Of a stretch of DNA of 64,000 nt, positions 8,528 to 47,800 are shown in pieces. The position numbers and the translations under genes were made by a program. Source of the DNA: Chamaelirium japonicum (taxonomy: Eukaryota > Streptophyta > Magnoliopsida > Liliales > Melanthiaceae); the NCBI GenBank assembly GCA_947650365.1, contig CANTAL010000002.1, positions 999,501 through 1,063,500 on the forward strand, in the 5' to 3' direction. Numbering within the stretch: position 1 is the first letter of the stretch; each line of letters starts with the position of its first letter. A model generated the notes under the pieces. The model was not told the DNA's origin. It saw only the letters and a list, made by a program, of their open reading frames with translations, and did no database searches.

Positions 8528-8529
8528 TG

Positions 8530-23800: not shown

Positions 23801-26434
23801 TTCTCTCTCTTTTCTCTCAGTTCTATTCCCTCTTCTCCTATGGATTTGGGTTACCCATAGATTGCTTAGGCCCTAGGTAAGCTTACCCTATAAATAATAT
23901 AAGACCCCTTTAAGGTAGGGCATATTTGACGATACTCTCTTTCTCCCATCTCACAATAAGTTATAGCACGAACATATCGAGCCCAGTCAACCAGTCACAA
24001 GAAAACGGAGGGAGAGACGAAGACAGAAGAGAGAAAAGAAAAGAGAAGAGAATGGAGAGATAAACAAAGAAAGGAGAGAGAATAAGTCCTGCTTCAGTCC
24101 ATTCATCATGGGTATAGGTGTGAAGTAAGAAGGAATCTAAATTCCAAAACTCTACTACTTAATAGTATCATCTCAATGTTAATATGATTATCATAGTAAA
24201 TTTTAAAACTTTCTTTGTTTCAATTAAATGATTAATTTAATTAAAAAAATTATAGTAACATTATCAGCACAAAAAGAGAAGAAGTCCTGCTCAAGTCCAT
24301 TAGCCACAGGTATAGATATGAAGTAAGATGGAATCTAAATTCCCAAAATCCACTTCTCAATATTTATACGACCCCTTTAGGGTAGGGCACGTCTAACGGC
24401 TCTCTCTTTCTTCTATCTCATAACACATTATCAGTGCAAACATGTCAAGCCTAGCCTACCATTCACAAGAAAATAGAGAGAGAAACGAAGACAGAAAAAA
24501 GAGAAGAAGAGAGAAAATAAAACGAAGAGAGAAACAAAGATAAAAGAGAGAGAAGAAGTCCTATTCCAGTCCTTTAGCCACGGGTATAGGAGTGAAGTAA
24601 GAAGGAATCTAAATTCTAAAACTCAACTTCTCAATATTTATACGACCCCTTCAGGGTAGGGCATATTTGATGGCTCTTTCATTCTCCTATCTCACAACAC
24701 GTTATCAGTACGAACATGTCAAGCCCAGCCGACCAGTCATAAGAAAACAAAGAGAAAAACGAAGATAGAAGAGAGAGAAAAAGAGAAAAGAGAACAGATA
24801 GATAAATGAAAGGAGAAGAGAGAAGAAGTCTTGCTCTAGTCTATTGGCCACAGGTATAGGTGTGAAGTATAAAGGAATCTAAATTCCCAAACTCTACTTC
24901 TCAATAATATAATTAATTTTCTCCATTCTCTTCTCTCTTCTCCCATGGATTAGGGTTTCCCATAGATTGCTTAGGCCCTAGGTATGTTTACCCTATAAAT
25001 AATAAATAATATCTGATCCCTTTAGGGTGGGTTATGTTTGACGACTCTTCCTTTCTCCTATCTCACTACACATTTTCAGCACAAACATATTGAGCCCAGC
25101 CGACCAGTCGTAAGAAAATAGAGAGAGAACGAAGACAGAAGTAGAGTTTTGGAATTTAGATTCATTCTTACTTCATACCTAAACCCATGGCCATGGACTG
25201 GAGTAGGACTACTTCTCTCTTTTCTCTTGATTTATCTCTCCGTTTTTTTCTCTCTTCTTCTTTCTCTTCTGTCTTTGTTTCTTTCTCCATTTTCTTGTAA
25301 CTGGTCGGCTGGACTCGACATGTTCGTGCTTATAACGTGTTGTGAGATAGGAAAAAGAGAGAACCGTTACACGTGCCCCTCCCTAAAAGGCTCGTATAAA
25401 TATTAAGAAGTAAAGTTTTGGAATTTAGATTCCTTCTTACTTCACACCTATACCTATGGCTAATGAACTGAAGCAGGACTTCTTCTCTCTTCTTTCTTCA
25501 TTTATCTTTCTGTTCTCTTCTCTCTTTTTCCCTCTCTTCTATCTTTGTTACTTTCTCTGTTTTCTTGTGACTGGTCGGTTGGGCTCGATATGTTCATGCT
25601 GATAACATATTGTGAGAAGAGAGAAGAGAACCTAAATAAAATATTTAAATCTCTCTAGTTTTAATAATTAAATAGAAGTCTGTCCTCATTTTCTCTCTCT
25701 TCTGTGGAATTTTGGAATTTAGATTTCTTATTACATCACACCTAATCCTGTGCCCAATGGACTGGAGCAGGACTTTTTCTCTCTTCTCTATTCGTTTATC
25801 TTTTAGTTCTCTTCTCTCTTCTTCTCCTTTCTCTTCTCTCTCTTTTTTGGAGTTTTGGAATTTAGATTCTTTCTTACTTCATATTTATACCCGTGGCCAA
25901 TGGACTAGAGCAGGACTTCTTATCCCCTTCTCTCTTCATTTATCTCTCTGTTCTCTTCTCTCTTCTACCTAAATAATTTAATTAAATAATATAATTATTT
26001 AATTAAGAGAGAAATAAAGACAGAAGAGAGAGAAGAAGAGAGAAGAGAAAGGAGAGATAAACAACAAGACTTCTTCTCTCTTCTTTTTTTTATTTATCTC
26101 TATGTTTTCTTCTCTATTCTTCTCTCTCTTCTCTGTTCTCTTCTCTCTTCTTCTCTCTCATCTGTGAAGTTTTGGAATTTAGATTCCTTCTTACTTCACA
26201 CCTATACCCGTGGCCAATGGACTGGAGCAGGACTTCTTCTCCCCTTCTCTCTTCGTTTATCTCTCCGTTCTCTTATCTCTTCTACCTAAATAATTTAATT
26301 AAATAATATAATTATTTAATTAAGTGAGAAACAAAGACAAAAGAGAGAAGAAGAGAGATGAGAATAGTCCATTGGCCATGGGTATAAGTGTGAAGTAATA
26401 AGGAATCTAAATTTCAAAACTCCATAAAAAAGAG
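20899..26434. repeat. Array modules, mixed orientation
   Basis: About 5.5 kb of modules with frequent flips. Reverse: about 20899-21726, 22120-22465, 22830-23140, 23589-23810 and 25141-25960. Forward: about 21727-22119, 22466-22829, 23330-23588 and 23811-25140. Truncated LTR-like promoter parts lie near 22650-22770, 23840-23960 and 24950-25060. A Z/W-left fragment is at 24163-24263, a reversed L linker at about 25628-25690 and J2 AT palindromes at 25968-26011 and 26285-26325. No gene is visible. Confidence 0.75.
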
Positions 26435-28609
26435 AGAAGATAAAGATAGGCTTCTATTTAATTATTAAAACTATTGAGATTTATATTATTTTATTTAGCT
26501 TCTCTTCTCTCTTCTTACAACACGTTATCAGCACGAACATGTCGAGCCCAACCGACTAGTCAGAAGAAAATAGAGAAAGAAATAAAGACAGAAGAGTGAG
26601 AAAAAGATAGAAAAGAACGGAGAGATAAACGAAGAGAGAAGAGATAAGATGTCCTGCTCCAGTCCATTCACCACGGGTATAGGTGTGAAATAAAATGGAC
26701 TCTAAATTTCAAAACTCAACTTCTCTATATTTATATGACCCCTTTAGGGTGTGGTACGTATGACGGCTCTCTCTTTCTCCCATCTCATAACACGTTATAA
26801 ACAAGAACATATCGTACCCAGTCGACCAATCACAAGAAAATGGAGAGAGAAACGAAGACATAAGAAAGAGAAGAGAGAAGAGGACAGAGAGATAAAAGAA
26901 GAGAGAAGAAAGAAGAAGTCATGCTCAAGTCCATTGGCCACGGGTATTGGTGTGAAATAAGAAGGAATCTAAATTCAAAAACTCCATAGAAGAAAGTGAA
27001 GAAGAGAGAAGAGAACGGAGAGATAATTAAAGATAGAAGAGAGAAGAAGTCCTACTCCTATCCATTGGCTATGGGTATAGGTATGAAGTAAGAAGGAATC
27101 TAAATTCCAAAACTTTACTTCTGTCTTTATTTCTCTCTTCGTTTACTACAACTGGTTAGCTAGGCTCGAAATATTCATGCTGATAACTTATTGTGAGATA
27201 AGAGAAAGAGAGAGTTGTCAAACGTGCCCCATCCTAAAGGGGTCATAAATTATTTATTATTTATAAGGTAAGCATATTTAGGGCCTAAATAATCTATAGG
27301 AATCCCTAATCCATGGAAAAAAGAGAAGAAAATGGCGAGTGTAAATTATATTATTGAGAAGTAGAGTTTTGAAATTTAGATTACTTCTTCTCTCTTCTGT
27401 CTTCTTTTATCTCTTTATTCTCTTCTTTCTTGTTCTCTCTCTTCTATTTTTGTTTCTCTCTCTGTTTTCTTGTGATTGGTCAGCTGGGCTATATATGTTC
27501 ATACTGATAACGTACTGTGATATAGAAGAAAAAAGGAGCCGTCAAATATGCCCCACCCTAAAGGGGTCATATAAATATTGAGAAGTTAAGTTTTGGAATT
27601 TATATTCCTTCTTACTTCACACCTATACCCATGGCCAATGGCCTAGAGTAGGACTTCTTCTTTCTTCGTTTATTTTTTCGTTCACTTCTCTAATTTTCTC
27701 TCTCTCTCTCTCTCTTCTATCTTCGTTTCTCTCTCCGTTTTCTTCTCTCTTTTTCTCTCTCTTCTATCTTCGTTTCTTTCTTCATTTTCTTGTGAATGGT
27801 AGGCTGGGCTCGATATATTCGTGTTGATAATATATTATGAGGTAGAAGAAAGGGAGATCTATAAAATGTGCCCCACCCTAAAGGTGCCATATAAATATTG
27901 AGAAGTGGAGTTTTGTAATTTAGATTCCTTCTTACTTCATATCTATACCCGTGGCTAATGGACTGTAGTAGGACTTCTTCTCTTTTCGTGCTGATAATAT
28001 TACTAAATTTTTTTAATTAAAATAATCATTTAATTAAAATGAAGAGAGTTTTGGAATTTACTATGATAATCATAATAACATTGAGATGATACTATTGAGA
28101 AATAGAGTTTTAGAATTTAGATTTCTTCTTTTTGTTTCTCTCTCCGTTTTCTTATGACTGGTCGGCTGGGCTCGACATGTTCGTGCTGATAACGTATTAT
28201 GAGATGGGAGAAAAAGAAAGTCGTCAAACATGCCCCACCCTAAAGGGGTTGTATATTATTTATAGGGTATGCTTACTTAGGGCCTAAGTAATCTATGGGA
28301 AACCCTAATCCATAGGAGAAGATAGAAGAGATCGGAGAGATTTAATTATATTATTGAGAAGTGGAGTTTTGGATTTTAAATTCCTTCTTACTTCACACCT
28401 ATACCCTTGGCGAATGGACTAGAGTAAGACTTCTCTTTTGTCTCTTCATTTATCTCTCCATTCTCTTCTCTCTTCTCACAATACGTTATCAGTACGAACA
28501 TATCGAGCCCAGCCGACCATTCACAAGAAAACGGTGCGAGAAACGAAGAAAGAAGAGAGGGAAGAAGAAAGAAGAGAACGGAGAGATAAATAAAGAAAGA
28601 AGAAGAGAA

Positions 28610-28780
28610 ATAAAATATTTTTTATGCTCATAAATTTATATTAATTATTTAATAATTATGTAATGTTTTATAATTAAATATTTAAATAATAACATTGAGA
28701 TAATACGATTTGAATATTTAAAGAAATAATATACTTTATAATATTTAAAGAAATATTAATTAAAATAAATAAGCAATCTT
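28610..28780 (+). repeat. K linker
   Basis: AT-rich linker from TAAAATATTTTTTATGCTCA to AAATAAGCAATC. It lies 2.2 kb after the L linker in this higher-order copy. Confidence 0.75.
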
Positions 28781-29490
28781 TTATCTCACAACATATTATC
28801 AGCACGAACATGTCAAACCCAGCAGACCAGTTACAAAAAAATAAAGAGAGAAATGAAGACAGAAATGAGAGAAGGAGAGAGAAGAGAACGGAGAGATAAA
28901 CGAAGTGAGAAGAGAGAAGAAGTCATGCTCCAGTCCATTCGACACGAGTATAGGTGTAAAGTAAGAAGGAATCTAAATTCCAAAACTTCACTTCTCAATA
29001 ATATAATTAAATCTCTCCATTCTCTTCTCTCTTCTCCTATGGATTCGGGTTTCCTATAGATTGCTTAGGCTTTAAGTAAACTTACGCTATAAATAATAAA
29101 CGACCCCTTTAGGGTGCGGCACATATGACGGCTCTCTCTTTCTCCCATCACACAATATGTTATCAGTACGAACATATCGAGCCAAGCTGACCAGTTACAA
29201 AAAAACAGAGAGAAAAACGAAGACAAAAGAGAGAGAAGAAGAGAACGAAGAGAACAAAGAGATAAATGAAGAGAGAAAAGATAAGAAGTCCTACTCCAGT
29301 CCATTTGCCATGGGTATAGGTGTGAAGTAAGGAGGAATCTAAATTCCAAAACTCCACAGAAGAGAGAAAATATGAAAGAAGAGAATAGAGCGACAAATAA
29401 AAAGAGAAGAGAGAAGTAGTCTTGCTCAAGCCCATTGGCCACGGGTATAGGTGTGAAGTAAGAAGGAATCTAAATTACAAAACTCCACTT

Positions 29491-30197
29491 CTCAATAGTA
29501 TCATCTCAACATTATTATGATTATCATAGTAATATTACTATACTTTTTTTAATTAAATTAATCATTTATTTAATTATTAAATAATTTAAATAATTTAATA
29601 ATTTAAATAATTTAATAATTAAGTTTTTAGTAAAATAATTAATTTTTTAAGTTATTTAATTATTTTAATTATTTATTATTATTATATTATTAAATTATTA
29701 AATTATATACTGATTTAAATATTTAAATTATTAAATAAAGAAATATTAATTTAATTATATTATATATTAATTTATTTATTTTATAAGTTATTTCTTAAAT
29801 TATTATTTTATTTTTAATTAATTAAATAATAAGTCACTTATTGAAATATTTAAAAACTTAATTAGTGAAGAAATATATTAAATATATTATTTACTAATAT
29901 GAAAAAATAATTTAATTATTAAATAATTTTATAGTTAAATAAATAATTAAAAAAAATTATTATACAATTAAATAATTATTTTATTAAATTATAAAATATT
30001 AATTGAAATTAATAAAAAATTAATTATTTAATTAAGTAATAAAAATAAAAAATAATTCTATAACTTTTTACTAATTATTTAAATAATTAGTTAATTATTT
30101 TAATAATAGGAAGTAAAGAAGGAAGATGAGGTAATCCAAATTTTTTATTTTAAAAATAATTTATATTTTTCTTCAAAAAAATTTAAAACATTATAAC
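29491..30197 (+). repeat. AT-rich Z block
   Basis: From CTCAATAGTATCATCTCAAC to TTTAAAACATTATAAC, with the GGAAGTAAAGAAGG tail near 30110. It is followed by the LTR-like module. Confidence 0.8.
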
Positions 30198-30423
30198 TGT
30201 TATGAGATCGTTCGATAGGATGGCTATCCACCGTTTGATCTCTCCCTTGGATTATGATTTTCTATATATTGCTTAGACCCTAAGTAAGCTTACCCTATAA
30301 ATAATATACGACCACTTTTCCATAGATTGCTTAGGCCTTAAGTAAGCTTACTCTATAAAGAATATACGATCCTTTTAGGGTGGGGCACATTTGACGGCTC
30401 TCTTTTTTTCCCATTTCACAATA
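30198..30423 (+). repeat. LTR-like module with 59-bp internal duplication
   Basis: 226 bp from TGTTATGAGATCG to TTTCACAATA. The part CATAGATTGCTTAGG through TATACGA is present twice, giving two TATAAATA/TATAAAGA-type sites. The same 226-bp form is at 44663-44888 and 50119-50344; other complete modules are 167-168 bp. Confidence 0.8.
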
Positions 30424-31682
30424 CGTTATCAACTCAAACATATCAAGCCTAGCTGACCAGTCATAAGAAAACGAAGAGAGAAATGAAGACAAAAGAGAGA
30501 TAAGAAGAAAGAAGAGAACGGAGAGATAAACGAAAAGAGAAAACAGAAGAAGTCCTACTCTAGTCCATTGGCCACGAGTATAGGTCTGAAGTAAGAAGGA
30601 ATCTAAATTCCAAAACTCCACTTCTCAATAGTATTATCTCAATATTATTTTAATTATCATAGTAATATTACTATAATTTTTTAAATAAATTATTTATTTA
30701 TTTAATTATTAAAAAGGTGTGAAGTAAGAAGGAATCTAAATTCCAAAACTCCTTTTCTTAATATTTATATGACTCCTTTAGGGTGGGGCATGTTTGATGG
30801 CTCTCTCTTTCTCCCATCTCATAATATATTATCAGCACGAACATGTCAAGCCCAGCCAACCAATCACAAGAAAACAGAGAGAGAAACGAAGACAGAAAAG
30901 AGAGAAGAAGAGAGAAGAGAACGAAGATATAAAAGAAGATGGAAGAGAGGAGAAGTTCTGCTCCAGTCCATTGGCCACGGGTATAGGTGTTAAGTAAGAA
31001 GAAATCTAAATTCCAAGACTCCACAAAAGAGAGAGAAGAAGAGGGAAGAGAACAAAGAGATAAATAAAGAAAGAAGAGAGAAGAAGTCCTTCTCTAGTCT
31101 ATTGGCCATGGGTATAGGTGTGAAGTAAGAAGGAATCTAAATTCCAAAACTCTACTTCTGTCTTCGTTTATGTCTCCGTTCTCTTCTCTCTTCTTTTCTC
31201 TTTTCTTTTCTCTTTTCTGTGTAGTTTTGGAATTTAGATTCCTTCTTAATTCACATATATACCCATGGCGAATGGACTGGAGCAGTACTTCTTCTCTTTT
31301 CATTTATGTATGCATTCTCTTCTCTCTTCTTCTCTCTTTTCTATCTTTGTTTCTTTCTTAATTAAATAATTATATTATTTAATTAAATTATTTATGTAGA
31401 AGAGAAAAAAGAATGGAAAGATAAACGAAGAGAGAAGGGGAGAAGAAGTCCTACTCCAGTCCATTCTCCATGGGTATAGGTGTAAATTAAAAAAGAATCT
31501 AAATTCCAAAACTCCACAGAAGAGAGAGAAGAAGGGAGAAGAGAACGGAGATGAGAGAGAAGAATAGAGAAGAGTGCATAGAGATAAACAAAGCGAGAGA
31601 ATAGGAGAAGTCCTGCTCCATTCCATTAGCCACGGGTATAGGTGTGAAATAATAAGGAATCTAAATTCCAAAACAACATAGA

Positions 31683-31965
31683 AGAGAGAGAAGACAAGGA
31701 TTGGCTTCTTTTTAATTATTCAAACTAAAGAGATTTATATTATTTTATTTAGATTCTCTTTTATCTTTTTATAGCATGTTATCAGTATAAATATGTCAAG
31801 CCCAACCGACTAGTCACAAAAAAACAAAGAGTGAAACAAAGACAGAAGAGTGATAAAAAGAGCAAAGAACGGAGAGATAAACGAAGAGAAAAAATAGAAG
31901 AAGTCCTACTCCAGTCCATTAGCCATGGGTATAGGTGTGAAGTAAGAAGAAATCTAAATTCCAAA
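31683..31965 (+). repeat. Start of a further higher-order copy, truncated
   Basis: The L linker (GATTGGCTTCTTTTTAATTA...ATTTAGATTCTC) and first forward module match 26435 and 46382, but the sequence breaks near 31965 at CTCTATACCTATAACC and continues with unrelated module order. Confidence 0.7.
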
Positions 31966-32776
31966 ACTCTATACCTATAACCTTGGCTAATTGACTGGAG
32001 CAGGACTTCTTCTTTTCTCTCTCTTTTCTCCTATGGATTTGGGTTTCCCAATTAACTGGAGCGGGACTTCTTCTCTTTTCTCCCATGAATATATGACCCT
32101 TTTAGGGTGGGGCATGTTTGACGGCACTTTCTTTCTCCCATATCATAACACGTTATCGGCACGAACATATTGAGCTGAGCCGACCAGCCATAAGAAAATG
32201 GAAAGAGAAATGAAGACAGAAGTAGAGTTTTGGAATTTATATTCTTTCTTACTTCACACCTATACCCGTGACCAATAGACTGGAGCACGACTTCTTCTCT
32301 CTTTTCTATTCATTTATCTCTCTATTATCTTCTTTCTCCTGTCTTTGTTTCTTTCTCTGTTTTCTTGTGACTGGTCGACTGGGCTTAACATGTTTGTGCT
32401 GATAACGTATTATGAGATTAAATAAGTATAATAAATAAAGAGATGGTAGAGATCCGATGGGTCGTATAAATATTGAGAAGTGCAGTTTTAGAATTTAGCT
32501 TTCTTCTTACTTCTTACATGTATCAATGGCTAATGGATTAGAGCAAGAGTTCTATTTTCTTCTCTCTTTGTTTATCTCTCCGTTCTCTTCTCTCTTCTTT
32601 AAAGAATATACGACCCCTTTAGGGTGGGGCACGTTTGACGGCTCTCTCTTTCTCCCATCTCACAACACGTTATCAATACAAACATATCGAAGAGAAAAGA
32701 GAGAAGAAGTTCTGTAATCAATTAACTATTTATTTAATTAGATTCCAAGGAGCTTGATATATTCGTATTGATAATG

Positions 32777-32942
32777 TATTTTGAAATGGGAAAAATAAAG
32801 CCGTCAAACATGCCCCACCCTAAAGGAGTCATATATTATTTATAGGATAAGCTTACTTAGGGCCTAAGCAATCTATAGGAAACCCTAATCCATGGGAGAG
32901 ATCCGATGGAGGGCAGTCATCCGATCGAACGATCTCATAATA
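32777..32942 (-). repeat. LTR-like module, reverse
   Basis: 166 bp reading TATTTTGAAATGGG at the left and CGATCTCATAATA at the right on the plus strand. It contains GAAACCCTAATCC and TATTATTTATAGG. It is flanked by TTGTAATGTTTTAAA, the reversed Z end. Confidence 0.75.
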
Positions 32943-33487
32943 GTTGTAATGTTTTAAATTTTTTTTTAAAAAATAATTATTATTTTTAAAGCAAAAAATT
33001 TGTTTATTTAAATTAATTATTTTACTAAAAACTTAATTTATAATTTTTTTAAATTATTAAATAATTTAAACAAAGACAAATAAGAGAGAAGACAGAAGAA
33101 GTCCTGCTCCAGTCCATTCACCACGAGTATAAGTGTGAAGTAAAAAGGAATCTAAATTCAAAAACTCCACTTCTCAATAGTATCATCTCAACATTACTAT
33201 GATTATCATAGTAAATTCTCTTCTCTTTTTGTTTTAATATAACGATTAATTTAATTAAAAAAATTATAGTAACAATACACCACTTAATTATCATAGTAAA
33301 AAAATAATATAAGAAGAGAGAAGATAATTAAATATTTATTTAATTATTTAATTATTTAACTATTTAATTGATTAAATAATTAAATTAATTAAATAATAGT
33401 AAGTAAAAAAAGAAGATGAGCCACACTCGAATTTTTTGCTTTAAAAATATTTTCATTTTTCTTTAAAAAAATATAAAACATTACAAC

Positions 33488-33654
33488 TATTTTGAGATCG
33501 TTCGATCAGATGGCTGTCAACATCGGATCTCTCCCATGGATTAGGCTTTCTCGTAGATTGCTTAGGCCCTAAGTAAGCTTACCCTATAAATAATATACGA
33601 TACCTTTAGGATGGGGCACGCTTGACTACCCTCTTTTTCTCCCATCTTACAACA
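33488..33654 (+). repeat. LTR-like module, complete
   Basis: 167 bp from TATTTTGAGATCG to CATCTTACAACA. It contains ATTAGGCTTTCTC (diverged telo-box-like), CCCTATAAATAATATACGA and a pyrimidine patch. CGTTATCAGCATGAATATG follows at once. It is preceded by ACATTACAAC of the Z tail. Confidence 0.75.
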
Positions 33655-33670
33655 CGTTATCAGCATGAAT
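33655..33670 (+). promoter_or_regulatory. Primer-site-like motif (representative)
   Basis: CGTTATCAGCATGAAT sits directly at the end of the LTR-like module. The consensus CGTTATCAGCACGA recurs dozens of times on each strand across the array, always at this place. It resembles the anticodon arm of cytoplasmic tRNA-Ile in reverse complement (recalled sequence), so internal tRNA priming is possible. Confidence 0.4.
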
Positions 33671-36600
33671 ATGTCGAGCCCAGCCGACCAGTCGCAAAAA
33701 AATGGAGAGAGAAACAAAGACAGAAGAGAGTGAAGAGAACAGGAAGATAAACAAAGGTAGAAGAGAGAAGAAGTCCCGCTCCAGTCCATTGGCCATGGGT
33801 ATAGGTGTGAAGTTAGAAGGAATCTAAATTTGATAACTTTACTTTTGTCTCCGTTTTCTTTTGACTGGTCGGCTAGGCTCGAAATATTCATGCTGATAAC
33901 ATGTTATGAAATGGGAGAAAGAGAGAAGTAAATGAAGAGATAAACGAAGATAGAAGAGAGAAGAAGTCCTGCTCTCTCTAGTTTAAAATAATTTTCTATC
34001 TTTTTTCTATCAATACTTATTTATTTTATTTTATACTATAAAATAAAAAGAGAGAAACAAAGATAATGGGGAGAGAAACAGGGAAAAAAACAAAAGATAA
34101 CATGTTATGAGATGGGAGAAAGAGAGAACTGTCAAACGTGCCCTACCCTAAAGGGGTGGTATATTATTTATAGGGTAAGTGTTATGAGATGGGAGAAAGA
34201 AAGAGCCATCAAACGTACCCTATGCTAAAGGGATCGAATATTATTTATAGGGTAAGCTTACTTAGGGCCTAAGAAATCTATGAGAAACACTAATCCATGG
34301 GAGAAGAGAGTAAAGAATGGAGAGATTTAATTATATTTTTGAGAAGTAGAGTTTTGGAATTTAGATTCCTTCTTAATTAAACTAGACATGTTATAAGCAT
34401 GAACATATCGAGCCCAGCCGACCAGTCGTAAGAAAATAAAGAGAGAAACGAAGATAGATGTAGAGTTTTGGAATTTATATTCCATCTTACTTCACACCTA
34501 TATCCATGGCCAATAGATTAGAGCATGACTTCTTCTTTTTTCATTTATCTCTCCGTTCTCTTCTCTCTTCTTCTCTCTCTTCTGTCTTCGTTTCTCTCTT
34601 CATTTTCTTACGACTGGTCGGCTCGGCTCGACATGTTCGTGCATATAATATGTTATGATATGGAAGAAAAAAAGAGCCGTCAAACATACCCCACCCTAAA
34701 GTGGTCGTGTATTACTTATAGGGTACGCTTACTTAAGGCATAAGCAATTTATGGGAAACCCTACTCCATAGGAGAAGAGAAAAAAGAACAGCGATGTATA
34801 ATTATATTATTGAGAAATAGAGTTTTGGAATTCAGATTCCTTCTAACTTCAAACCTATACCCGTGGTCAATGGACTGGAGCAGGACTTCTTCTCTCTTTG
34901 TTTACCTCTCTATCTATTTTCTTGAGACTGGTCGGCTGTGCTCGACATGTTCGTATAAATAACGTGTTATGAAATGGGAGAAAGAGCTGTCAAGCGTGCC
35001 CCACCATAAAGGGATCGTATAAATATTGAGAAGTGGAGTTTTGGAATTTAGATTCCTTTTTAATTCAAACCTATAGTCGTGGCCAATGGACTAGAGCTGG
35101 ACTTGTTCTCTCTTTTATCTTTGTTTATCTCTTAATTCTCTTATCTCTTCTTCTCACTCTTCTGTCTTCGTTTATCTCTCTATTTTCTTGCGACTGGTCG
35201 GCTGGACTCGACATGTTCGTACTGATAACGTGTTATGAGATAGGATAAAGAGAGAGTCGTTAAACATGCCCTACCCTAAAGGGGTCATATATTATTTATA
35301 GGGTAAGCTTACTTAGGGCTTAACCAATCTATGGGAAACCCTAATCCATAGGAGAAGAGATAAGAAAACAGAGAGATTTAATTAAATTATTGAGAAGTGT
35401 AGTTTTGGAATTTAGATTCATTCTTACCTCACACATATCCCATGGCGAATGGACTGAAGTAGGACTTTTCTCTCTCTTTTTTTTGTTTATCTCTCTATTC
35501 TATTCTCACTTGTCATAACATATTATTAGCACGAACATATCGAGCCCAGCCGACCAGTCATAAGAAAATAGAGAGAGAAACAAAGACAGAAGTGAGAGAA
35601 GAAGAGAGAAGAGAACAGAGAGATAAACAAAAAGAGAAGAGAGAAGATTTCCTGCTCCAGTCTATTAGCCACAGGTATAGGTGTGAAGTAAGAATGAATC
35701 TAAATTCTGAAACTCTATAAAAGAGAAAGAAGAAGAGAGAAGAGAACAGAGAGATAAATGATGTGAGAAGAAAGAAAAAGTCTTGCTCCAATCCATTGGC
35801 CACGGCTACAAGTGTGAAGTCAGAAGGAATCTAAATTCCAAAACTCCATTTCTATCTTCGTTTCTCTCTCTGTTTTCTTGTGACTGGTCGGTTGGGCTCG
35901 ATATTTTCGTATTGATAACATGTTCTGAGATGGGAGAAAGAGAGAGCTATCAAACATGCCCCTCCCTAAAGGGGTCGTATATTATTTATAAGAAAAGATT
36001 AATTAGGGCCAAAGCAATCTATGGAAAATCCAAATCCATGGGAGAGATCTGACGGTGGATATCCATCCTTCTTATCGCACACCTAAACCTATGGCCAATG
36101 GACTTGAGCATGAATTTTTCTCTTTTTTCTTTTCTCTTTTCTCTCTTTGTTTATCTTTTTGTTCTCTTCTCTCTTCTTCTCTCTCTGATGACTTTGTTTC
36201 TCTCTCCATTTTCTTGCGACTGGTCGACAGGGCATAATATATTCGTGCTGATAACATGTTATGAGATGGGAGAAAAAAAGAGAAGAGAACGGAAAGATAA
36301 ACGAAGAGAGAAGAGAGAAGAAGTCTTACTTAATTCTATTGGCCATGGGTATAGATGTGAAGTAAGAAAGATGGCTGTCCATCGTCGGATCTCTCCCATG
36401 GATTAGGATTTTGTATAGATTGCTTAGGCCCTAAGAAAGCTTATCAGTATGAACATATCAAGCCTAGACGACCAGTCACAAGAAAATGGAGAGAGAAACG
36501 AAGACAGAAGTGGAGTTTAGAAATTTAGATTCCTTTTTACTTCACACCTATACCCGTGGCCAAAGAACTAGAGTAGGACTTCTTCTCTCTTCTCTCTTCA

Positions 36601-39600
36601 TTTATCTCTTCGTTCTCTTCTATCTTATTATCTCTCTTCTTTGGAAATTTGGAATTTAGATTCCTTCTTACTTTACAGCTATACCCATGGCCAATGGACT
36701 GAAATAGGACTTCTTCTCTCTTCTCTCTTTGTTTATCTCTCTGTTATTTCTCTCTCTCTATTATCATTTCTCTCTCCGTTTTCTTGTGACTGGTCGGTTG
36801 GGCTCAACATGTTCGTATTGATAATGTCTTGTGAGAAGAGAGAAGAGAACTAAGAGATAAACAAAGAGACAAGAGAGACAAAGTCCAATTCTAGTCCATT
36901 CGCCATGGGTATAGATGTGAAGTAAGAAGGAATCTAAATTCCAAAACTCCACTTCTTAATAATATAATTAAATCTCTCTGTTCTCTTCTCTCTTCTTCTA
37001 TGAATTAGGGTTTCCCATAGATTGTATAGGATCTAAGTAAGCTTACTCTATAAATAATATACGACCTTTTTAGGGTGCGACACGTTTGATGGCTCTCTCT
37101 TTCTCCCATATCATAATACTTTATCAACACAAATATGTCGAGTCCAGCCGACCAATCGCAAGAAAACAGTGAGAGAAATAAAGAAAGAAGTGGAGTTTTG
37201 GAATTTAGATTCCTTCTTACTTCACACCTATACCCGTGGCTAATGGACTGGAGCAGGACATCTTCTCTCTTCTCCCTTTATTTATCTCTCTATTCTTTTC
37301 TCGCTTCTTATCTCTCTTTTGTCCTCGTTAAACTCTATTTCTTCTCTTTATAAATAGATAGAGAGATGAAGATAGAAGAGAAAGAAGAAGAGAGAAGAGA
37401 ACATAGAGATAAATAAAGAGAGAAGAAAGAAGAAGTCCTGCTCCAGTCCATTGGCCACGAGTATAGGTGTGAAGCTTTCTTTTCTCTCTTTATTTATCTC
37501 TCCGTTCTCTTCTCGCTTCTTATGTCTCTTCTGTCTTCGTTAGACTCCTCTTCTTCTCTTAAATGGATAGAGAAATATAGACAGAAGTGAGAAAAGAAGA
37601 GAAAAGGAACGAAAAGATAAATGAAGAGAGAAGAGAGAAAAAGTCGTACTCCAGTCTATTGGTCACGGGTATAGATGTGAAGTAAGATGGAATCTAAATT
37701 CCAAAACTCCACTTCTATCTTCGTTTCTCTTTCTGTTTTCTTACGACTGGTCAGCTGGGCTTGATATGTTCGTGCTGATAACGTGTTATTAGATGGGAGA
37801 AAGGAAGAGCCGTCAAATGTGCCCCACCCTAAAGGGTTCATATATTATTTATAGGGTAAGCTTACTTAGGTCCTAAGCAATCTATATGAAACCCTAATCC
37901 ATGGGAGAAGAGAGAAGAGAATGGAGAGATTTAATTATATTATTTAGAAGTGGTGTTTTGGAATTTAGATTCCATCTTACTTCACACCTTTACCCAAGGC
38001 AAATGGACTAGAGCAGTACTTCTTCTCTATTCTTTCTTTATTTATCTCTCTCTTCTTTTCTCTCTTCTTCTTTTTTCTCACAACTCGTTATCAGCACATA
38101 CATATCGAGCCCAGCCGACTAGTCACAAGAAACCGGAAAAAGAAACAAAGACAGAAGAGAGAGAAGAAGAGAGAAGAGAATAGAGAGATAAATAATTTAA
38201 ATAATATATTTAAATAATTTAGTTAAATTCTAAATAGTGGTCAGCTGGACTCGACATATTCATGCTGATAACATGTTATGAGAAAAAAGAAGAAGAAAGA
38301 AGAGAATGGAGAGAAAATCAAAGAAAGAAGAGAGAAGAAGTCTTGCTCCAGTTCATTATCCATGGGTATAGGTGTTAAGTAAGAAGAAATCTAAATTACA
38401 AAACTCTACTTCTTAATAATATAATTGAATCTCTCTGTTCTCTTCTCGCTTCTCCCATGGATTAGGGTATCTCTTAATATTGGAACTTAGGGCCTAAGCA
38501 ATTCGGGTATGCCACTTCTTACTATCGAGCCCAGCCGACCAGTCGTATCTATCTCTTCTGTCTTCGTTTATCTCTTCGTTCTATTCTCTCTTTTTCTCTC
38601 TCTTCTATGGAGTTTTGGAATTTAGATTACTTCTTACTTCATACTTGTACCCATAGCGAATAGATTGGAGAAATACTTCTTTTCTCTTCTCTCTTTGGAG
38701 AGATAAGAGAAAAGAAGAAAGAAAAGAACAGAGAGATAAATGAAGAGAGAAGAGAGAAGTCCTGCTCCAGTCCATTGACCACGGATATAAGTGTGAAGTA
38801 AGAAGGAATCTAAATTCCAAAACTCCTCTTCTGTCTTTATTTCTCTCTCTATTTTTTTGTGACTGGTCGGCTGGGCTAAATATTATTGTGCTGATAATAT
38901 GTTGTGAGATGGGAGAAAGAGAGAGCCATTAAACATGCCCTACTCTAAAGGAGTTATATATTATTTATAGGGTAAGTGTTGTGAGATGAGAGAAAGAGAG
39001 AGCCGTTAAATATGCCCCACATTAAAGTGGTCGTTTATTATTTATAGGGTAAGCTTACTTATAGCCTAAGCAATCTATGGGAAACCCTAATCCATGGGAG
39101 AAGAGAGAAGAGAACGACGATATTTTATTATATTATACGACCCCTTTAGGGTGAAACAAGTTTGATGGCTCTCTCTTTCACCCATCTCACAACACCTTAA
39201 TTAGTAAACTTAATTATTAAATTATTTAAATTATTTAATAAATAAATAAATATTTAATTTAATTAAAAAATTTATAGTAACATTACTATGATAATTATAT
39301 TAACGTTGAGATGATACTATTGAGAAGTGGAGTTTTAGAATTTAAATTCCGTCTTACTTCATACCTATACCCGTGGCGATAATCAATATATATAATTAAA
39401 TATTTATAAGGTAAGCTTACTAATTAAGAGAATTGATTTAATAATTATTTAAATAAATGAATAATATGACCCCTTTAGGGTGGGGCACGATAGATCGGAT
39501 AGATGTCCACCATCGAATCTCTTCCATGGATTAGGGTTTTCTATAGATTGCTTAGGCCCTAAGTAAGCTTACCCTATAAATAATATACGATTCCTTTAGG

Positions 39601-39734
39601 GTGGGGCACGTTTGATGGCTCTCTCTTTGTTACATCTTACAACACATTATCAGTATGAACATGTCGAGCCCAACCGACCAGTCACAAAAAAACGGAGAGA
39701 GAAACGAAGACAGAAGAGAGAGAAGAAGATATAG

Positions 39735-40186
39735 TTCAAAAAATAATAATTTAAATAAATTACAATATAATTAAATAATTAAAAAAAAATATTAATTTAT
39801 AAAATATTGATTGAAATAAATAAAAAAATTAATTATTTAATTAACTAATAAAATAAAATAATAATTTAATAACTATTTACTTATTATTTAAATAATAAGG
39901 TAATTATTTGAATATATAAATAATAAAATGTTTTTTTAAATAACTTATTTTTTTTAAATAATAAAATTAATATTATTTATTTTATTATTTAAATAATAAA
40001 TAAATTATTTAAATAATTTAAATATGTAGTTATATAGATAATTAAATATTTATTTAATTATTTAATTTATTAAAAAAATTAAATTAATTAAATAATAGGA
40101 AGTAAAGAAGGAAGATGATGCATACCCGAATTTTTTGCTTTAAAAAGAATTTATATTTTTCTTTAAAAAATTAAAAATATTACAAC
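39735..40186 (+). repeat. AT-rich Z block, left part missing
   Basis: AT-rich sequence entered abruptly from a GA tract (GAAGAAGATATAGTTC) and ending with GGAAGTAAAGAAGG, GAATTTTTTGCTTTA and ATTACAAC. It is paired with the reversed block 57220-57680, which has the same abrupt entry. Confidence 0.8.
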
Positions 40187-40353
40187 TGTTTTGAGATCGT
40201 TCAATCGGATGGCTGTCCACTGTCGGATCTCTCCCATGGATTAGGATTTCCTTTAGATTGTATAGGCTCTAAGTAAGCTTACCCTATAAATAATATATGA
40301 CCCCTTTTGGGTGAGCACATTTGATTGCTTTCATTTTCTTTCATCTTACAACA
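40187..40353 (+). repeat. LTR-like module, complete
   Basis: 167 bp from TGTTTTGAGATCG to CATCTTACAACA, with GATTAGGATTTCC and CCCTATAAATAATATATGAC. CGTTATCAGCATGAACATG follows directly. Mirror partner at 57052-57219. Confidence 0.8.
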
Positions 40354-42904
40354 CGTTATCAGCATGAACATGTCGAGCCCAACCGACCAGTCATAAGAAA
40401 ACAGAGAGAAACAAAGACAGAAGAGAGAGAAGAAAAAAGAAGAGAACGGAGAGATAAATAAAAAGAGAAGAGAGAAGAAGTCCTACTCTAGTCCATTCAC
40501 CACTGGTATAAGTATAAAGTAAGAAAGAATCTAAATTCCAAAACTCTACTTCTTAATATTTATATAACCCCTTTAGGGTGGGGTACGTTTGACGGCTCAC
40601 TTTTTCTTCATCACAAAACACGTTATTAGCACGAACATACCGAGCCCAACCGACCAGTTACAAGAAAATAGAGAGAGAAAGGAAGACAGTAGAGAGATAA
40701 AAGATGGGGAAATAAATGAAGAGAGAAGATAGAAGAAGTCCTGTTCTAATCCATTGCCCACGGGTATAGGTGTGAAGTAAGAAGAAATCTAATTAGCGTA
40801 GGGCACGTTTGATGACTCTCTCTTTCTCCCATCTTACAACTTGTTATCAGCACGAATATGTCGAGCCCAGCTGACCAATCATAAGAAAACAGAGAGAGAA
40901 ACGAAGACAGAAAAGAGAGAAGAAGAAAAAAGAAAATAGAGAGATAAACGAATAGAGCAGAGAGAAGAAGTCCTGCTCCAGTCTATTCGCCATGGGTATA
41001 TGTATGAAATAAGAAGGAATCTAAATTCCAAAACTCCACTTCTCACTAATATAATTAAATCTATCCGTTCTCTTCTCTCTTTCCCATGGATTTGGGTTTT
41101 TCATAGATTGCTTAGGCCCTAAGTAAGCTTACCCTATAAATAAAATACGACCCCTTTAGGGTGGGGCATGTTTGACGGCTCTCTCTTTCTCCCATCTAAT
41201 AACATGTTATCAGCACGAACATATCTTGCCCAATCGACCAGTCACAAGAAAACAAAGAGAGAAACGAAGAGAAAAGAGAGAGAAAAGAACAAAGAATTAA
41301 TTATGTAAATAGTCTCTTCTCACACGGGTATATGTGTGAAGTAAGAAGGAATCTAAATTCCAAATCTCCACAAAAGAGAGAGAAGAAAAGAGAAGAAAAT
41401 GAAGAGATAAATAAAGAGACAAAAGAGAAGAAGTCTTACTCCAGTCTATTGGCCACGGGTATAGTTGTTAAGTAAAAAAGAATCTAAATTCCAAAACTCC
41501 ACTTTTCAATATTTATACAACTCTTTTAGGGTGGGGTACGTTTGACGGCTCTCTTTTTCTCCCATCTCATAACACTTTATCAACACGAACATGTCGAGCC
41601 CCGCCGACCAGTCATAAGAAAACGGTGAGAGAAACGAAGACAAAAGAGAAAAAAGAAGAGAGAAGAGAACAGAGATATAAACAAAGAGAGAAGAGAGAAG
41701 AAGTCCTTCTCCAGTCTATTTGCCACGGGTATAGGTGTGAAGTAAGAAGAAATCTAAATTCTAAAACTCTACTTCTGTCTTCATTTCTCTCTTCATTTTC
41801 TTACGACTGGTCGGCTGGGCTCGATATATTTGTGCAGATAATGTGTTATGAAATAGGAGAAAGTGAGAGTCATCAAACGAACCCCACCCTAAAGAGGTCG
41901 TATATTATTTATAGGGTAAGCTTACTTAGGGCCTAAGCAATCTATAGGAAATCCTAATCCATGGGAGAAGGGATAAAAGAACGGAGAGATTTAATTATAT
42001 TATTGAGAAATGGAGTTTTAGAATTTAGATTCCTTCTTACTTCATATTTATACCCGTGGCCAATAGACTTCATTACGATTTCTTCTCTCTTCTCTCTTCG
42101 TTTATCTCTATGTTCTTTTCTCTATTCTTCTCTCTCTTTTGTCTTCGTTTCTCTCTCTGTTTTCTTGTGACTGGTCGGCTGGGCTCAATATGTTTGTGCT
42201 GATAACGTGTTGTAAGATGGGAAAAAGAAAGAGACGTCAAACATGCCCCACCCTAAAGGGGTCATATAAATATTTAGTAGTAGTGTTTTGAAATTTAGAT
42301 TCCTTCTTACTTCACCCCTATAATCATGGCCAATGGACTGAAGCAGGAATTCTTCACTCTTCTCTCTTCGTTTATCTCTCTTTTCTCTTCTCTCTTCTTC
42401 TCTATCTTGTATCTTCGGTTCTCTCTCCGTTTTCTTGTGACTGGTCGATTGGGCTCGATATGCTCGTGTTGATAACGTATTGTCCGATGAGAAAAAGAGA
42501 GAGTCGTCAAATATGCCCCACCTTAAAGGGGTCGTATAGTATTTATAGGGTAAGATTACTTAGGACCAAAACAATTTATCGAAAACCCTAATCCATGGGA
42601 GAAGAGAGAAGAGAACAAAGAGATTTAATTATATTAATTAGAAGTTGAGTTTTAGAATTTAGATTTCTTCTTACTTCACACCTATACCCATAGCGAATGG
42701 ACTGGAGTGGGACTTCTTCTCTCTTCTCTCTTCATTTATCTCTCCGTTCTCTTCTCTATTCTTCTCTCTTCTCACTACATGTTATCAGCACAAACATGTC
42801 GAGCCCAGTTGACCAGTTACAAGAAAACGGTGTAAGAAACAAAGACAGAAAAGAAAGAATAAGAGAAAGGAGAACGGAGAGATAAATGAAGAGAAAAGAA
42901 GATA

Positions 42905-43060
42905 AATAAAATATTTTTCATACTCATAAATTTATATAAATTATTTAAATATTTAAATAATAATATTGAGATAATACTATTTAAATATTTAAAGAAATAA
43001 TATATTTTATAATATTTAAGAAAATATTAATTAAAATAAATAAAATAAATAAGCAATCTT
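42905..43060 (+). repeat. K linker
   Basis: Starts near TAAAATATTTTTCATACTCA and ends AATAAGCAATC. It lies 5.79 kb before the K linker at 48696. Confidence 0.75.
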
Positions 43061-43768
43061 CTATCTCATAACAAGTTCTCAGCATGAATATGTCGAGCCC
43101 AGCGGACCAGATACAAGAAAATAGAGAGAGAAACGAAGACAAAAGAGAGAGAAGTAGAGAGAAGAGAATGGAGAGACAAATAAAAAGAAAAGAGAGAAGA
43201 AGTCCTACTCTAGTTTATTCGCCACGGTTATAGGTATAAAGTAAGAAGAAATCTAAATTCCAACAATCCATATCTCAATAATATAATTAGATCTCTCTAT
43301 TATCTTTTCTCTTCTCCCATGTGTTAGGGTTTCCTATAGATTGCTTAGGCCCTTAGTAATCTTACCCTATAAATAATATATAACCCCTTTAGGGTGGGGC
43401 ACATTTGACGGTTCTCTCTTTCTTTCATCTCACAATATATTATCAACACGAACATGTCGAGCCCAGCCGACCAGTAATAAGAAAATAGAGAGAAAAACGA
43501 AGACAAAAGAGAGAGCAGAAGAGAGAAGAGAACGAAAAGATAAACGAGGAGAGAAGAGAGAAAAAGTCCAACTCCAATCCATTGGCCACAGGTATATATG
43601 TGAAATAAGAAGGAATCTAAATTCCAAAACTCCACAGAAGAGAGAGAAGAAGAGAGAAAAGAACGAAAAGATAAATGAAGAGAAAAGAGAGAAGAAGTCC
43701 TACTCAAGTCCATTGGCCATGGGTATAGGTGTAAAAAAAGAAGGAATCTAAATTTCAAAACTCTACTT

Positions 43769-44662
43769 CTCAATAGTATCATCTTAACGTTATTATGATT
43801 ATCATAATAATGTTACAATAACTTTTTTAACTAAATTAATTAATTATTTAAATATTAAATATTTTAATAATTTAAAATTTTTAATAAATAATTTTTTAGT
43901 AAAATAATTAATTTATTGACTTATTTAAATATTTAATTTAATTTATTATTTTATTTATTTATTTATTATTATATTATTAAATCATGAAACAATGTAACTA
44001 TTTATTTATTTAAATTATTAAATAAATAAATAATAATTAAATTATATATTTAATTAATTATTTTTTTATATGTTATTTTATAAAATTTTATTTTATTTTT
44101 AAATAATTAAATAATTATTTAATTATTGAAATATTTAAAAACTAATTTAGTGAAAAAATATATTAAATAGATTATTTACTAAAACAAATAAATAATTTAA
44201 TTATTAAATAATTTATAGTTAAATAAATAATAATAAAGTAAATTTTTATGTAATTAAATAATTAAATAATTATTTTATTAAATTATAAAATATTAATTAC
44301 AATTAAATAAAAAATTAATTATTTATTTAATTAATAAAATAAAAAAATAATTTAATAAATATATACTAATTATTTAACTTGTTAGTTAATTATTTGAATA
44401 TATAAATAATAATTTTTTTAATTAAATAAATAAATTTTTAAATAAAAAAATAAATACTTATTTATTTTAATATTTGAAATATAAATAAATAATTTAGTTA
44501 TTTAATTATATATATAATTAAAAAAAAATTTAATTATTTAATTTATTAAACTAATTAAATTAATTAAATAATAGGAAGTAATAAAGGAAGATGAGTCATA
44601 CCCGAATTTTTTACTTTAAAAATAATTTATATTTTTTTTATAAAAATTTAAGACATTACAAC
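43769..44662 (+). repeat. AT-rich Z block, full length
   Basis: From CTCAATAGTATCATCTTAAC to GACATTACAAC, about 0.9 kb of AT-rich sequence with the GGAAGTAATAAAGG tail near 44575. No coding potential. Confidence 0.8.
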
Positions 44663-44888
44663 TGTTATGAGATCGTTCGATGGGAAGGCTATATATCGTC
44701 GGATCTCTCCCATGGATTAGGGTTTCCTATAGATTGCTTAGGCCTTAAGTAAACTTATACTATAAATAATATACGACCCCTTTCCCATAGATTGCTTAGG
44801 CCCTAAGTAGGCTTACCCTATAAATAATATACGTCCCCTTTAGGGTGGGGCTCGTTTGACGGCTCTCTCTTTCTCCCATCTAACAATA
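44663..44888 (+). repeat. LTR-like module with 59-bp internal duplication
   Basis: 226 bp, TGTTATGAGATCG to CATCTAACAATA. Two copies of CATAGATTGCTTAGGCC...ATAATATACG lie in tandem. There is one GATTAGGGTTTCC upstream of both. Confidence 0.8.
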
Positions 44889-47800
44889 TATTATCAGCAC
44901 GAATATGTCGAGCCCAGCCGACCAGTCACAAAAAAACGGAGAAAGAAATAAAGGTAGAAGAGAGAGAAGAGAAAAGAGAATGAAGAGATAAACGAAGAAA
45001 GAAGAGAGAAGAAGTCCTACTCCAGTTTTTTAGCCACGGGTCTAGGTATGAAATAAGAAGGATTCTAAAGTCCAAAACTCTACATCTCTATAATATAATT
45101 AAATCTTTCCATTTTTTTCTTTCCCTCATCTCACAACACGTTATCAGCACGAAAATTTCGAGCCCAATCAACCAGTCACAAGAAATCGGAGAGAGAAACG
45201 AAGACAAAAGAGAGAGAAGAAGAAAGAAGAGAATGGAGAGATAAAGAAAGATAAAAGAGAGAAGAAGTCCTACTCTAGTCCATTGGCCATAGCTACATAT
45301 GTGAAGTAAGAAGGAATCTAAATTCTAAAACTGCACTTCTAAATAGTCTCATCTCAACGTTATTATGACTATCATAGTAATGTTACTATAATTTTTTAAT
45401 TAAATTAATTATTTATTTAATTATTAAATAGGTATGAAGTAAGAAGGAATCTAAATTCCAAAACTTTAATTCTCAATATTTATACGACCCCTTTAGGGTG
45501 GGGCATGTTTGATGGTTCTCTCTTTATCCCATCTCACAATATGTTATTAGCACGGATATGTCATGCCCTGCTAACTAGTCGTAAGAAAACAAAGAGAGAA
45601 ATGAAGACAGAAGAGAGAGAAGAAACGAGAAAAGAACTAAGAGATAAACAAAGATCGAAGGAGAAGAAGTCCTGCTCCAATCCATTGGCCACGGGTATAG
45701 GTGTGAAGTAAGAAGGAATCTAAATTCCAAAACACTACAGAAGAGAGAAAAAGAGTAAAGATAACGGAAAGATAAATTAAGAGAGAATAAGTCTTGCTCC
45801 AGTCCATTATCCACGGGTATAGGTGTGAAGTAAGAAGGAATCTAAATTCCAAAACTCTACTTCTGTCATCGTTTATCTCTCCGTTCTCTTCTCTCTTCTT
45901 CTCTCTCTTCTGTGTAGTTTTGGAATTTAGATTCCTTCTTACATCACACCTATACCTGTGGCAAATGGACTGGAGTAGGACTTTTACTATCTTCTCTCTT
46001 TTGTTATCTCTTCGTTATCTTCTTTCTTCTTCTCTCTCTTTTGTCTTCATTTCTCTCTTAATTAAATAATTATATTATTTATTTAAATTATTTAGGTAGA
46101 AGAGAGAAGAGAACAGAGAGTTAAACCAAGAGAGAAGGGGAGAAGAAGTCATGCTCCAGTCCACTGGCCACGGGTATAGGTGTGAAGTAAGAAGGAATCT
46201 AAATTCCAAAACTCCATAGACGAATAAAAATAAGAGAGAAGAGAACAGAAAAGAGAGAAGAATAGAGAAGAGAACGTAGAGATAAACGAAAAGAGAAGAG
46301 AGAAAATTCCTACTCCAGTCCATTGGCCACGGGTATAAGTGTAAAGTAAAAGGGAATCTAAATTCCAAAACTCCATAAAAGATAGAGTAGATAAGGGCAG
46401 ACTTCTATTTATTTATTAAAACTATAGGGATATATAATATTTTATTTAGGTCCCTTCTCTCTTCTAACAACACGTTCTCAGCTTGAACATGTCTAGTCTA
46501 ACCGACTAGTCATAAGAAAACAAAGAGAGAAATAAAGACAGAAGAAAGAGAAAAAAAGAGAAAAGAATGGAGAGATAAACAAAGAGAGAAGAGATAAGAA
46601 GTCCTGCTCTAGTCCATTCGCCACGGGTATAGGTTTGAAGTAAGAAGGAATCTAAATTCTAAAAATCCACTTCTTAATATTTATACGACCCCTTAAGGGT
46701 ACGGCACGTGTGACGGTTCTCTCTTTCTCCTATCTCACAATATGTTATTAGTACGAATATATCATGCCCAGCAGACCAATTAAAAGAAAACGGAGAGAAA
46801 AATAAAAACAGAAGAGAGGGAAGAAGAAAGAAGAGGACGGAAAAATAAACGAAGAAAAAAGAAGTCATGCCCAAGTCTATTGACCACAGGTATAGGTGTG
46901 AAGTAAGAAGGAATCTAAATTTAAAAACTCCATAGAAAAGAGAGAAGAAGAGAAAAGAGAATGGAGAGATAAATGAAATAAGAAGAAAGAAGAAGTCATA
47001 CTCCAAGTCATTGGCTATGGGTATAGGTGTGAAGTAAGAAGGAATCTAAATTCCAAAACTTCACTTTTGTCTTTGTTTCTCAATCCATTTTCTTACGACT
47101 GGTCAGTTGGGCTCAACATATTCGTGCTGATAACGTGTTGTGAGATGAGAGAAAGGGAGAGCCATCAATCGTGCCCCACCCTAAAGGGGTCATAAATTAT
47201 TTATTATTTATAGGGTAAGCATACTTTAGGCCTAAGCAATCTATGGTAAACCCTAATCCATGGGAGAAGAGAGAAGAGAATAGCAAAAGTAAATTATATT
47301 ATTGAGAAGTGGAGTTCTGGAATTTAGATTACTTCTTACTTCATACTTAAACCCGTAGTTAATGGACTGGAGCAGGACTTCTTCTCTCTTCTATCTTCAT
47401 TTATCTCTCCGTTCTCTTCTCTCTTATTCTCTTTTCTGACTTTGTTTCTCTCTCCGTTTTCTTATAACTAGTCAGCTAGGCTCGACATATTCTTGCTGAT
47501 AATGTATTATGAGATGGGAGAATAAGAAAGCCATCAAATATGCCCCACCCTAAAGGGGTCGTATAAATATTAAAATATTAAATTTTGGAATTTAGATTCC
47601 TCTTACTTCACACCTATACCCATGGCTAATGGCCTGGAGCAGGACTTCTTCTCTCTTCATTTAAACTTTCATTCTTTTCTCTCTTTTTCTCACTCTTCTA
47701 TTGTCGTTTCTCTCTCCGTTTTCTCTTCTCTCTTTTTCTCTCTCTTCTGTCTTTATTTCTCTCTCTGTTTTCTTGTGACTGGTAGGCTAGGCTTGATATG

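Follow-up and report, generated by a model that had tools for sequence, protein, structure and literature searches.

Structure of the array and of its LTR module

The window analysed here is a 64-kb stretch of the Chamaelirium japonicum genome (C14:999501-1063500), and the subject is the repeat array that fills most of it. The genome comprises 1.52 Gb in 3,253 contigs; labels such as C1 and C2 denote contigs of this same plant genome, and L012 or L102 denote loci fetched from it. Altogether, 52,224 bases of the window form one self-similar array, in which every base has at least five self-matches. The array is built around a short module with the features of a long terminal repeat (LTR), followed by a primer binding site, a leader and further blocks. 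The features are as follows.

1..8522, no strand: complex satellite array, left part (self-matches)
20308..64000, no strand: complex satellite array, right part (self-matches)
33488..33654, plus strand: complete LTR module (167 bp), TATTTTGAG...CTTACAACA in this copy (BLAST, block parse; both ends match dispersed LTR ends)
3186..3353, plus strand: complete LTR module (BLAST, block parse)
40187..40353, plus strand: complete LTR module (BLAST, block parse)
32777..32942, minus strand: complete LTR module (BLAST, block parse)
57052..57219, minus strand: complete LTR module (BLAST, block parse)
33655..33668, plus strand: primer binding site CGTTATCAGCATGA, 1 mismatch to CGTTATCAGCACGA (in its common form, complementary at 14/14 bases to the anticodon arm of tRNA-Ile(AAT), A34 being read as inosine)
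3354..3367, plus strand: primer binding site, exact CGTTATCAGCACGA (sequence match)
33669..33772, plus strand: purine-rich leader, opening with a TCGAGCCCAGCCGACCAGTCG stretch (leader status from its place after the primer site; alone, no match in 60 dispersed loci)
33773..33845, plus strand: block K, array-specific (no match in 60 dispersed loci, some overlapping; 30-base core with 16,438 exact copies genome-wide)
33415..33487, plus strand: AT-rich block Z, abutting the LTR start, with no polypurine tract (sequence, parse)

Five complete modules of 166-168 bp had been reported in the first-pass annotation, and the block parse of the 52.2-kb array puts all five within 2 bases: 3187-3351, 33490-33654 and 40187-40353 on the plus strand, and 32779-32940 and 57052-57219 on the minus strand. 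The TG...CA ends with a 10-bp inverted terminus agree as well; the termini TGTTATGAGA and TCTCACAACA are complementary at 9 of 10 bases. The two internal motifs that had been named, TATAAATA and TTAGGGTTT, are both in the module. A BLAST search with the copy at 33488 gave 101 matches in the window, self included. Ten of them start at base 1-3 of the module, 33 at base 43, and 19 at base 107. Since few matches start at base 1-3, most module copies are 5'-truncated. A sixth full-length match (58218-58383, 77%) is a chimera, the left end of which is an inverted right end. A recurring 75-77-bp repeat, duplicating the part from the TATA motif to the end, was also seen at 34103-34256, 7722-7870, 38900-39053, and 58383-58460; its joint runs from the LTR right end to LTR base 91-92 (CTTACCCTATAAATAAT). 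An inverted-repeat check at 34080-34320 found nothing.

Primer binding site and tRNA-Ile

The last third of the module reaches the right end in 105 cases, and 97 of these join the CGTTATCAGCACGA block directly, as had been claimed for a gapless join from the module to this word and a purine-rich leader. The other eight right ends lead into an inner LTR part (four), AT-rich sequence (two), or a degenerate or cut site (two). With the leader rather than the motif as the anchor, 117 copies differed from CGTTATCAGCACGA at a mean of 2.1 of the 14 positions; 2,000 letter shuffles of CGTTATCAGCACGA differed by 10.5 on average and by 5.4 at the least.

The reverse complement of CGTTATCAGCACGA is TCGTGCTGATAACG. 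The related word TCGTGCTAATAACG occurs at 1,345 places in the genome (control, 1); ten fetched places comprised one tRNA-Ile(AAT) gene, four dispersed primer sites, and five array sites. The tRNA gene lies in the same genome at L031:1467-1542, and TCGTGCTAATAACG is its anticodon arm with the loop. The arm and the primer-site complement differ solely at A34, the first base of the anticodon. If this base is taken as inosine, CGTTATCAGCACGA is the 14/14 complement of the host anticodon arm; by our own count, the paired bases are presumably tRNA positions 27-40. Opposite A34, 102 of the 117 array copies have C, 10 have T, and 5 have A, which fits pairing with inosine. Passages of Neumann et al. 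2019 (PMC6317226) describe A34 as edited to inosine, which is able to pair with C, and the edited half tRNA-Ile as the primer of the Bianca elements of Ty1/copia. The editing is taken from those passages and read onto this genome; the array carries the primer site that they give for Bianca.

In the 117-copy set, the consensus base is kept at 85% of the primer-site positions and at 83% of the last 12 LTR bases. No selection on the array primer site was seen, as its conservation is like that of the adjoining LTR end; the array copies are therefore fossils. A tRNA-iMet primer was considered for the module and rejected; the iMet-type site in the window sits in a gypsy insert.

Dispersed relatives in the same genome

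A pattern joining a polypurine tract end to an array-type LTR start (at most 2 mismatches) was found at 18 places (control, 0), of which 6 were fetched. One of these, L102 on C6, has a polypurine tract, a 167-bp LTR ending CATCTCACAACA, and an unrelated flank. A tree was reconstructed from 49 LTRs, including 11 array copies; L103 and L104, with right ends that could not be set, were left out, as were L013, L062, and other partial LTRs. L102 groups with the 11 array copies (support 99/96), and L107, L105, and L106 stand next to this group (99/92, 98/90, and 93/96, respectively). The mean identity is 84% between L102 and the array copies and 82% among the array copies themselves. With the L102 LTR as query, 40 of 3,110 candidates were scored, leaving out the last six LTR bases, so that the right end was not covered. 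Among the 39 other scored matches, 35 start exactly at TG, outside the tract, three at base 18, and one at base 19; judged by their place, they look like array copies.

Directly upstream of the L102 LTR lies a decayed copia reverse transcriptase (RT) region, with 60% identity over 166 aa to L043 (E 6e-68); L102 carries RT-side remnants only. From its sequence, this region suggests that the source family of the array LTR was very probably a coding copia family.

More distant relatives were sought with an array-avoiding pattern, CA-CGTTATCAGCACGA with any base but A after it. It has 972 exact places in the genome (reversed control, 0) and none in the window, versus seven with A following, and thus mostly excludes the array. 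Among 20 loci fetched with it, L012 and L013, a duplicated pair of 4.1 kb, match the whole module, and L025 matches in part. Among the loci obtained with the unedited form, L030 and L032 are full-length relatives as well, and L029 and L033 have no match. Alignments with the full-length relatives cover all of the module but its first two bases, at 67-70% identity, and the left flanks are unrelated. A 4.1-kb segmental duplication was also observed in L039, which carries a module-related LTR with primer site twice; 1.8 kb of it is alignable, at 97% identity.

With an L032-type LTR as query, 1,595 candidates were obtained, 40 were scored, and 30 were fetched; these 30 loci hold 31 LTRs. Thirteen LTRs are followed by the primer site (degenerate in L062). 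Seventeen have a polypurine tract before and no primer site after (the tract is degenerate in L060 and L067). The remaining one, L056, has neither and is solo-like, with flanks ATGCA/ATGTA. The commonest tract of the dispersed copies is CATCCAAGGGGGAG. When LTRs were paired by contig, strand, and target duplication, a pair on C5 showed the perfect duplication CTATT, 9.9 kb apart, and a pair on C11 showed ACTAT, 30 kb apart and therefore probably with an insert. The L022/L043 element has the perfect duplication CTCTC and identical 157-bp LTRs. The L009/L041 element has TATAT, perfect but in a TA run, and its LTR pair has 1 mismatch in 155. Imperfect duplications are TCTCC/TCTCT, GGGAG/GGAAG, ATGCA/ATGTA, and ATTTT/ATTTG; L014/L042 and L074 are among these. 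L022/L043 and L009/L041 are young elements, and the half-tRNA-Ile primer type was used recently in this genome, because the L041 and L043 LTR pairs differ at only 1/155 and 0/157 positions.

These copies have the features of LTR retrotransposons: sharp TG...CA ends, a primer site after the 5' LTR, a tract before the 3' LTR, and a 5-bp target duplication. The first-pass annotation had proposed to look in the genome for target duplications and for a polypurine tract before 3' copies; both are present on related dispersed copies. The module ends are likewise sharp in the dispersed relatives and do not fall inside longer conserved sequence.

The coding capacity of the same-primer elements is of the Ty1/copia type. 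L043 codes for copia gag, a zinc knuckle, gag_pre-integrase, integrase, and RT (Pfam), with the integrase before RVT_2; it has the same primer site as the array and belongs to a different LTR family. L074, with a related LTR of the L032 type, keeps decayed pieces along an L043-like polyprotein (gag, integrase-side, and RT). L065 holds a 1.13-kb LTR-to-LTR copy in a related subfamily; between its LTRs, this copy matches the L043 polyprotein at the RT/RNase H end, the RNase H part being assigned by position. This short copy is an internal deletion, and not a classical terminal-repeat retrotransposon in miniature (TRIM).

Architecture of the array

The parse contains 19 blocks of the LTR 5' part, of which 12 reach the LTR start and 7 are truncated. 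In the window, the AT-rich block Z stands before each of the 12 LTR starts; the truncated blocks are preceded by K (5) or by the LTR last third (2). None of these 12 starts has a polypurine tract before it, and AACATTACAAC, the run that precedes the module, is no such tract, as had been pointed out earlier. Together with the 97 primer-site joints, this suggests that the array carries the 5' end of an element: LTR, primer site, and probably the leader. A likeness of the leader to dispersed leaders was considered and dropped; the earlier block matches had included the primer site, and the leader alone is matchless in 60 loci. Weak Z matches in L108 are AT-rich.

Frequent joints in the parse are K-J (36), J-M (37), and K-E (32). 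There are also recurring tail-to-tail joints, from K to an inverted primer-site block (21) and from a primer-site block to an inverted K (12). The orientations are balanced, with 55 and 56 blocks. A 2.6-kb stretch is repeated within the window at 41638-44250 and 4421-7022 (91% identity), and 60306-63974 matches 38501-34886 in inverted orientation (84%). These repeats point to multi-kb duplication inside the array.

Genome-wide abundance and position

The control for the K core count gave 0 copies, and 19 of the exact copies lie in the 52 kb of array in the window. If the window is typical, the satellite might total about 45 Mb (37-59 Mb, given the small count), perhaps ~3% of the assembly. The proposal that the element had turned into a satellite was right, and the K-core counts and the sampling of C3 place it at a scale far beyond the window. 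Twenty stretches of 800 bases were sampled on C3 (100.1 Mb). Eight are array, at 0.1, 0.3, 0.5, 0.9, 1.1, 97.0, 99.2, and 99.4 Mb; those at 0.7, 1.3-3, 50, 98-99, 99.6, and 99.8 Mb were without array. Elsewhere, best matches with a known place are found within 3 Mb of the starts of C2-C7 and ~1 Mb from the C12 end. Others lie inward, with distances to the contig end of 10-13 Mb on C2 and C5, 14 Mb on C10, and 19-21 Mb on C1, and many sit on small contigs. On C1, the first K core is at 116.28 Mb of 137.28 Mb. In view of the inward matches, the array tends towards outer positions without being confined to them. Seven contig ends were read: the C3 start is a CCCTAAA telomere, a few TTTAGGG units terminate the C3 end, C1 and C2 both start with N, and the remaining ends are neither. 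The telomere repeat and the kinds of element present fit a plant. The array was at none of the seven.

Seven other loci, fetched as those most like the module at 33488, match all of 31988-35155 (3,168 bases) at 97.5-99.3%; the next-best places within the window match over only about 500 bases, at 82.6-85.5%. The long matches show that long units are shared between contigs. Among the K-core places listed for C1, and from positions only, a spacing of 18.77 kb recurs. At C1:116352318-116397261, about 21 Mb from the contig end, the K-core pattern is seen three times at this spacing, as expected for a tandem higher-order unit. Among the places listed for C2, lags of about 160, 338, and 498 kb were found, again from positions only. 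The repeat is characterized as a satellite by the length of its arrays, the relatedness of its units, and the higher-order units that are shared.

Gypsy insertion in the array

The array is interrupted at 8528-20302 by an 11.8-kb Ty3/gypsy element, which was not mentioned in the first-pass annotation. It has RT, RNase H, and integrase zinc-binding domains, and LTRs of 3.8 kb that differ by 5 mismatches and one gap. Its target site GGAGC is duplicated (5 bp), and its 5' LTR is followed by an iMet-type primer site (TGGTATCAGAGC). It is a very recent insertion into an old array. The four open frames of at least 150 aa in the window all lie within it. When its RNase H-integrase region was used to scan contigs of bacterial and archaeal genomes, 25 pattern matches appeared, none of which was confirmed; two scans of viral contigs gave 0 places. 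CpG depletion is close in the array (0.67) and the insert (0.73) and was not used as evidence.

Origin of the array

The sequence, tree, and abundance analyses suggest, with a probability of roughly 0.85, that the module is the LTR of a Ty1/copia family primed by half tRNA-Ile(IAU), and that the array is the amplified and scrambled 5' end of such an element, now a complex satellite. In the live element, the primer would have paired with CGTTATCAGCACGA right after the 5' LTR, plus strands would have started at CATCCAAGGGGGAG, and integration would have given a 5-bp duplication. An element may have inserted in or beside AT-rich DNA. Its 5' end (LTR and primer site, and by position the leader), with the AT-rich left flank and block K, may then have been duplicated, truncated, and partly inverted, and duplication with inversion would have led to composite units. 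Unequal exchange and segmental duplication might have spread long composite units between chromosomes, up to tens of megabases. A single 5' end would have founded the array, and its amplification would have proceeded by DNA recombination of these two kinds. The array itself is dead material.

Several observations weigh against this interpretation. The leader and the blocks K, J, and Z have no match among the 60 dispersed loci, and more than half of the array unit is thus without a proven source. The remaining 17 of the 20 loci fetched with the array-avoiding pattern have no module match, and they appear to be other LTR families sharing the primer site. The 5' LTR partner of L102 was not located and its target duplication not established, and its RT remnant scores below the Pfam RVT_2 cut-off (23.1 vs 31.6 bits). 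The array copies without L102 form one clade in 40% of 200 bootstrap trees, so that the tree leaves room for L102 both inside and beside the array clade. The seven long-matching loci were chosen for high identity, and they overstate the average likeness. The lineage label Bianca is putative and rests on the primer type.

The first-pass annotation had derived the array from a TRIM-like family turned into satellite. The LTR origin stands, and the TRIM source is not supported: a copia RT region, now decayed, lies upstream of the nearest dispersed LTR, the proteins encoded by same-primer elements are of copia type, L074 keeps decayed copia genes beside a related LTR, and no tract precedes the array LTRs in the window. 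A modified form of the idea is that the direct ancestor was a small non-autonomous TRIM-like derivative of this copia family (LTR, primer site, leader, K, polypurine tract, LTR), the 3' end of which was lost during array growth. The module length of 166-168 bp is within the range of about 100-250 bp for TRIM LTRs, the array has no coding sequence, a related subfamily includes the internally deleted 1.13-kb copy, and tandemly arrayed TRIMs are common in plants according to passages of PMC4717578. The leader and K, being unmatched in the dispersed loci, could also be the interior of an unseen small element. Such an ancestor nevertheless seems rather unlikely, in view of the 0/12 tracts before window LTR starts, the decayed RT region upstream of L102, and the absence of the K 30-base core up to 116 Mb on C1, a region in which one might expect a small element to be dispersed. 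The arrangement that defines a TRIM, an LTR on either side of a short non-coding interior that includes a primer site and a tract, was not found in the array of the window or at the nearest dispersed copy.

The array might also have grown as tandem retrotransposons with shared LTRs (LTR-internal-LTR-internal, as in tandemly arrayed TRIMs or Cassandra) and been scrambled later. Some stretches, such as 3186-3725, do run from LTR through primer site, leader, and K to an LTR part. This origin is very improbable, because the second LTR starts at base 11, 21, 43, or 107 (12 in two others), never at TG and without a tract, and because the two orientations are equally frequent, unlike in head-to-tail arrays. 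That the satellite came first and a retrotransposon captured its sequence as an LTR can hardly be credited. LTR and array sequences are related, and the direction is open in principle; but the array and L102 form a late group, below which L106, L105, and L107 branch stepwise (93/96, 98/90, 99/92, then 99/96), and the array copies bear a primer site, which only an LTR element needs.

For the joints within the amplified 5' end, a more speculative and quite unlikely route is that the founding units were born as chimeric cDNAs. Array-LTR transcripts would have been primed by half tRNA-Ile at array primer sites, and template switching would have made the base-43, base-107, and tail-to-tail joints before insertion in outer chromosome regions. 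If so, reverse transcription would have contributed to the spread of the satellite alongside DNA exchange.

Comparison with known systems

As far as passages of PMC6317226 (REXdb) describe it, the Bianca lineage of Ty1/copia shares with the present family the half tRNA-Ile primer site with A34 edited to inosine, and the copia domains found here in relatives. The 5-bp target duplication is the commonest length given there for plant LTR elements. The array copies differ in being immobile 5'-end pieces. Satellites derived from an LTR segment are treated in parts of a review (PMC12628747), which cites Macas 2009, Sharma 2013, and Vondrak 2020; compared with that account, the LTR has here retained its primer site, both lie among array-specific blocks, the orientation is mixed, and the composite units are long (a spacing of 18.8 kb on C1). 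According to passages of PMC7290377, Vaccinium satellites also resemble parts of LTR elements.

Tandemly arrayed TRIMs (PMC4717578) and Cassandra arrays (PMC7215508) likewise have short LTRs and no coding sequence in the array, whereas theirs are LTR-internal-LTR tandems with shared LTRs. Passages of PMC7215508 give Cassandra a 5S sequence in the LTR and the primer site TGGTATCAGAGC; the array has another primer site. Cassandra was rejected as a candidate, as no Rfam family reached the cut-off in the window and the primer site is different. Tandem LTR retrotransposons in rice and other plants (passages of PMC11899658) are also LTR elements repeated at one place, but are copies sharing internal LTRs and not 5'-end pieces. 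The open-access literature, judged by titles, gave no description of such a satellite. LTR-derived satellites are a known class, and the present one is unusual in its size, mixed orientation, and kept primer site.

Implications

In this plant, a very abundant repeat (perhaps 3% of the genome) can be tied to a definite retrotransposon type, with the 5' end and the primer site kept. With C opposite inosine at 102 of them, the 117 primer sites in the window form a fossil record of edited half-tRNA priming. The dispersed relative allows tests of how LTR-derived satellites start and how chromosomes exchange them.

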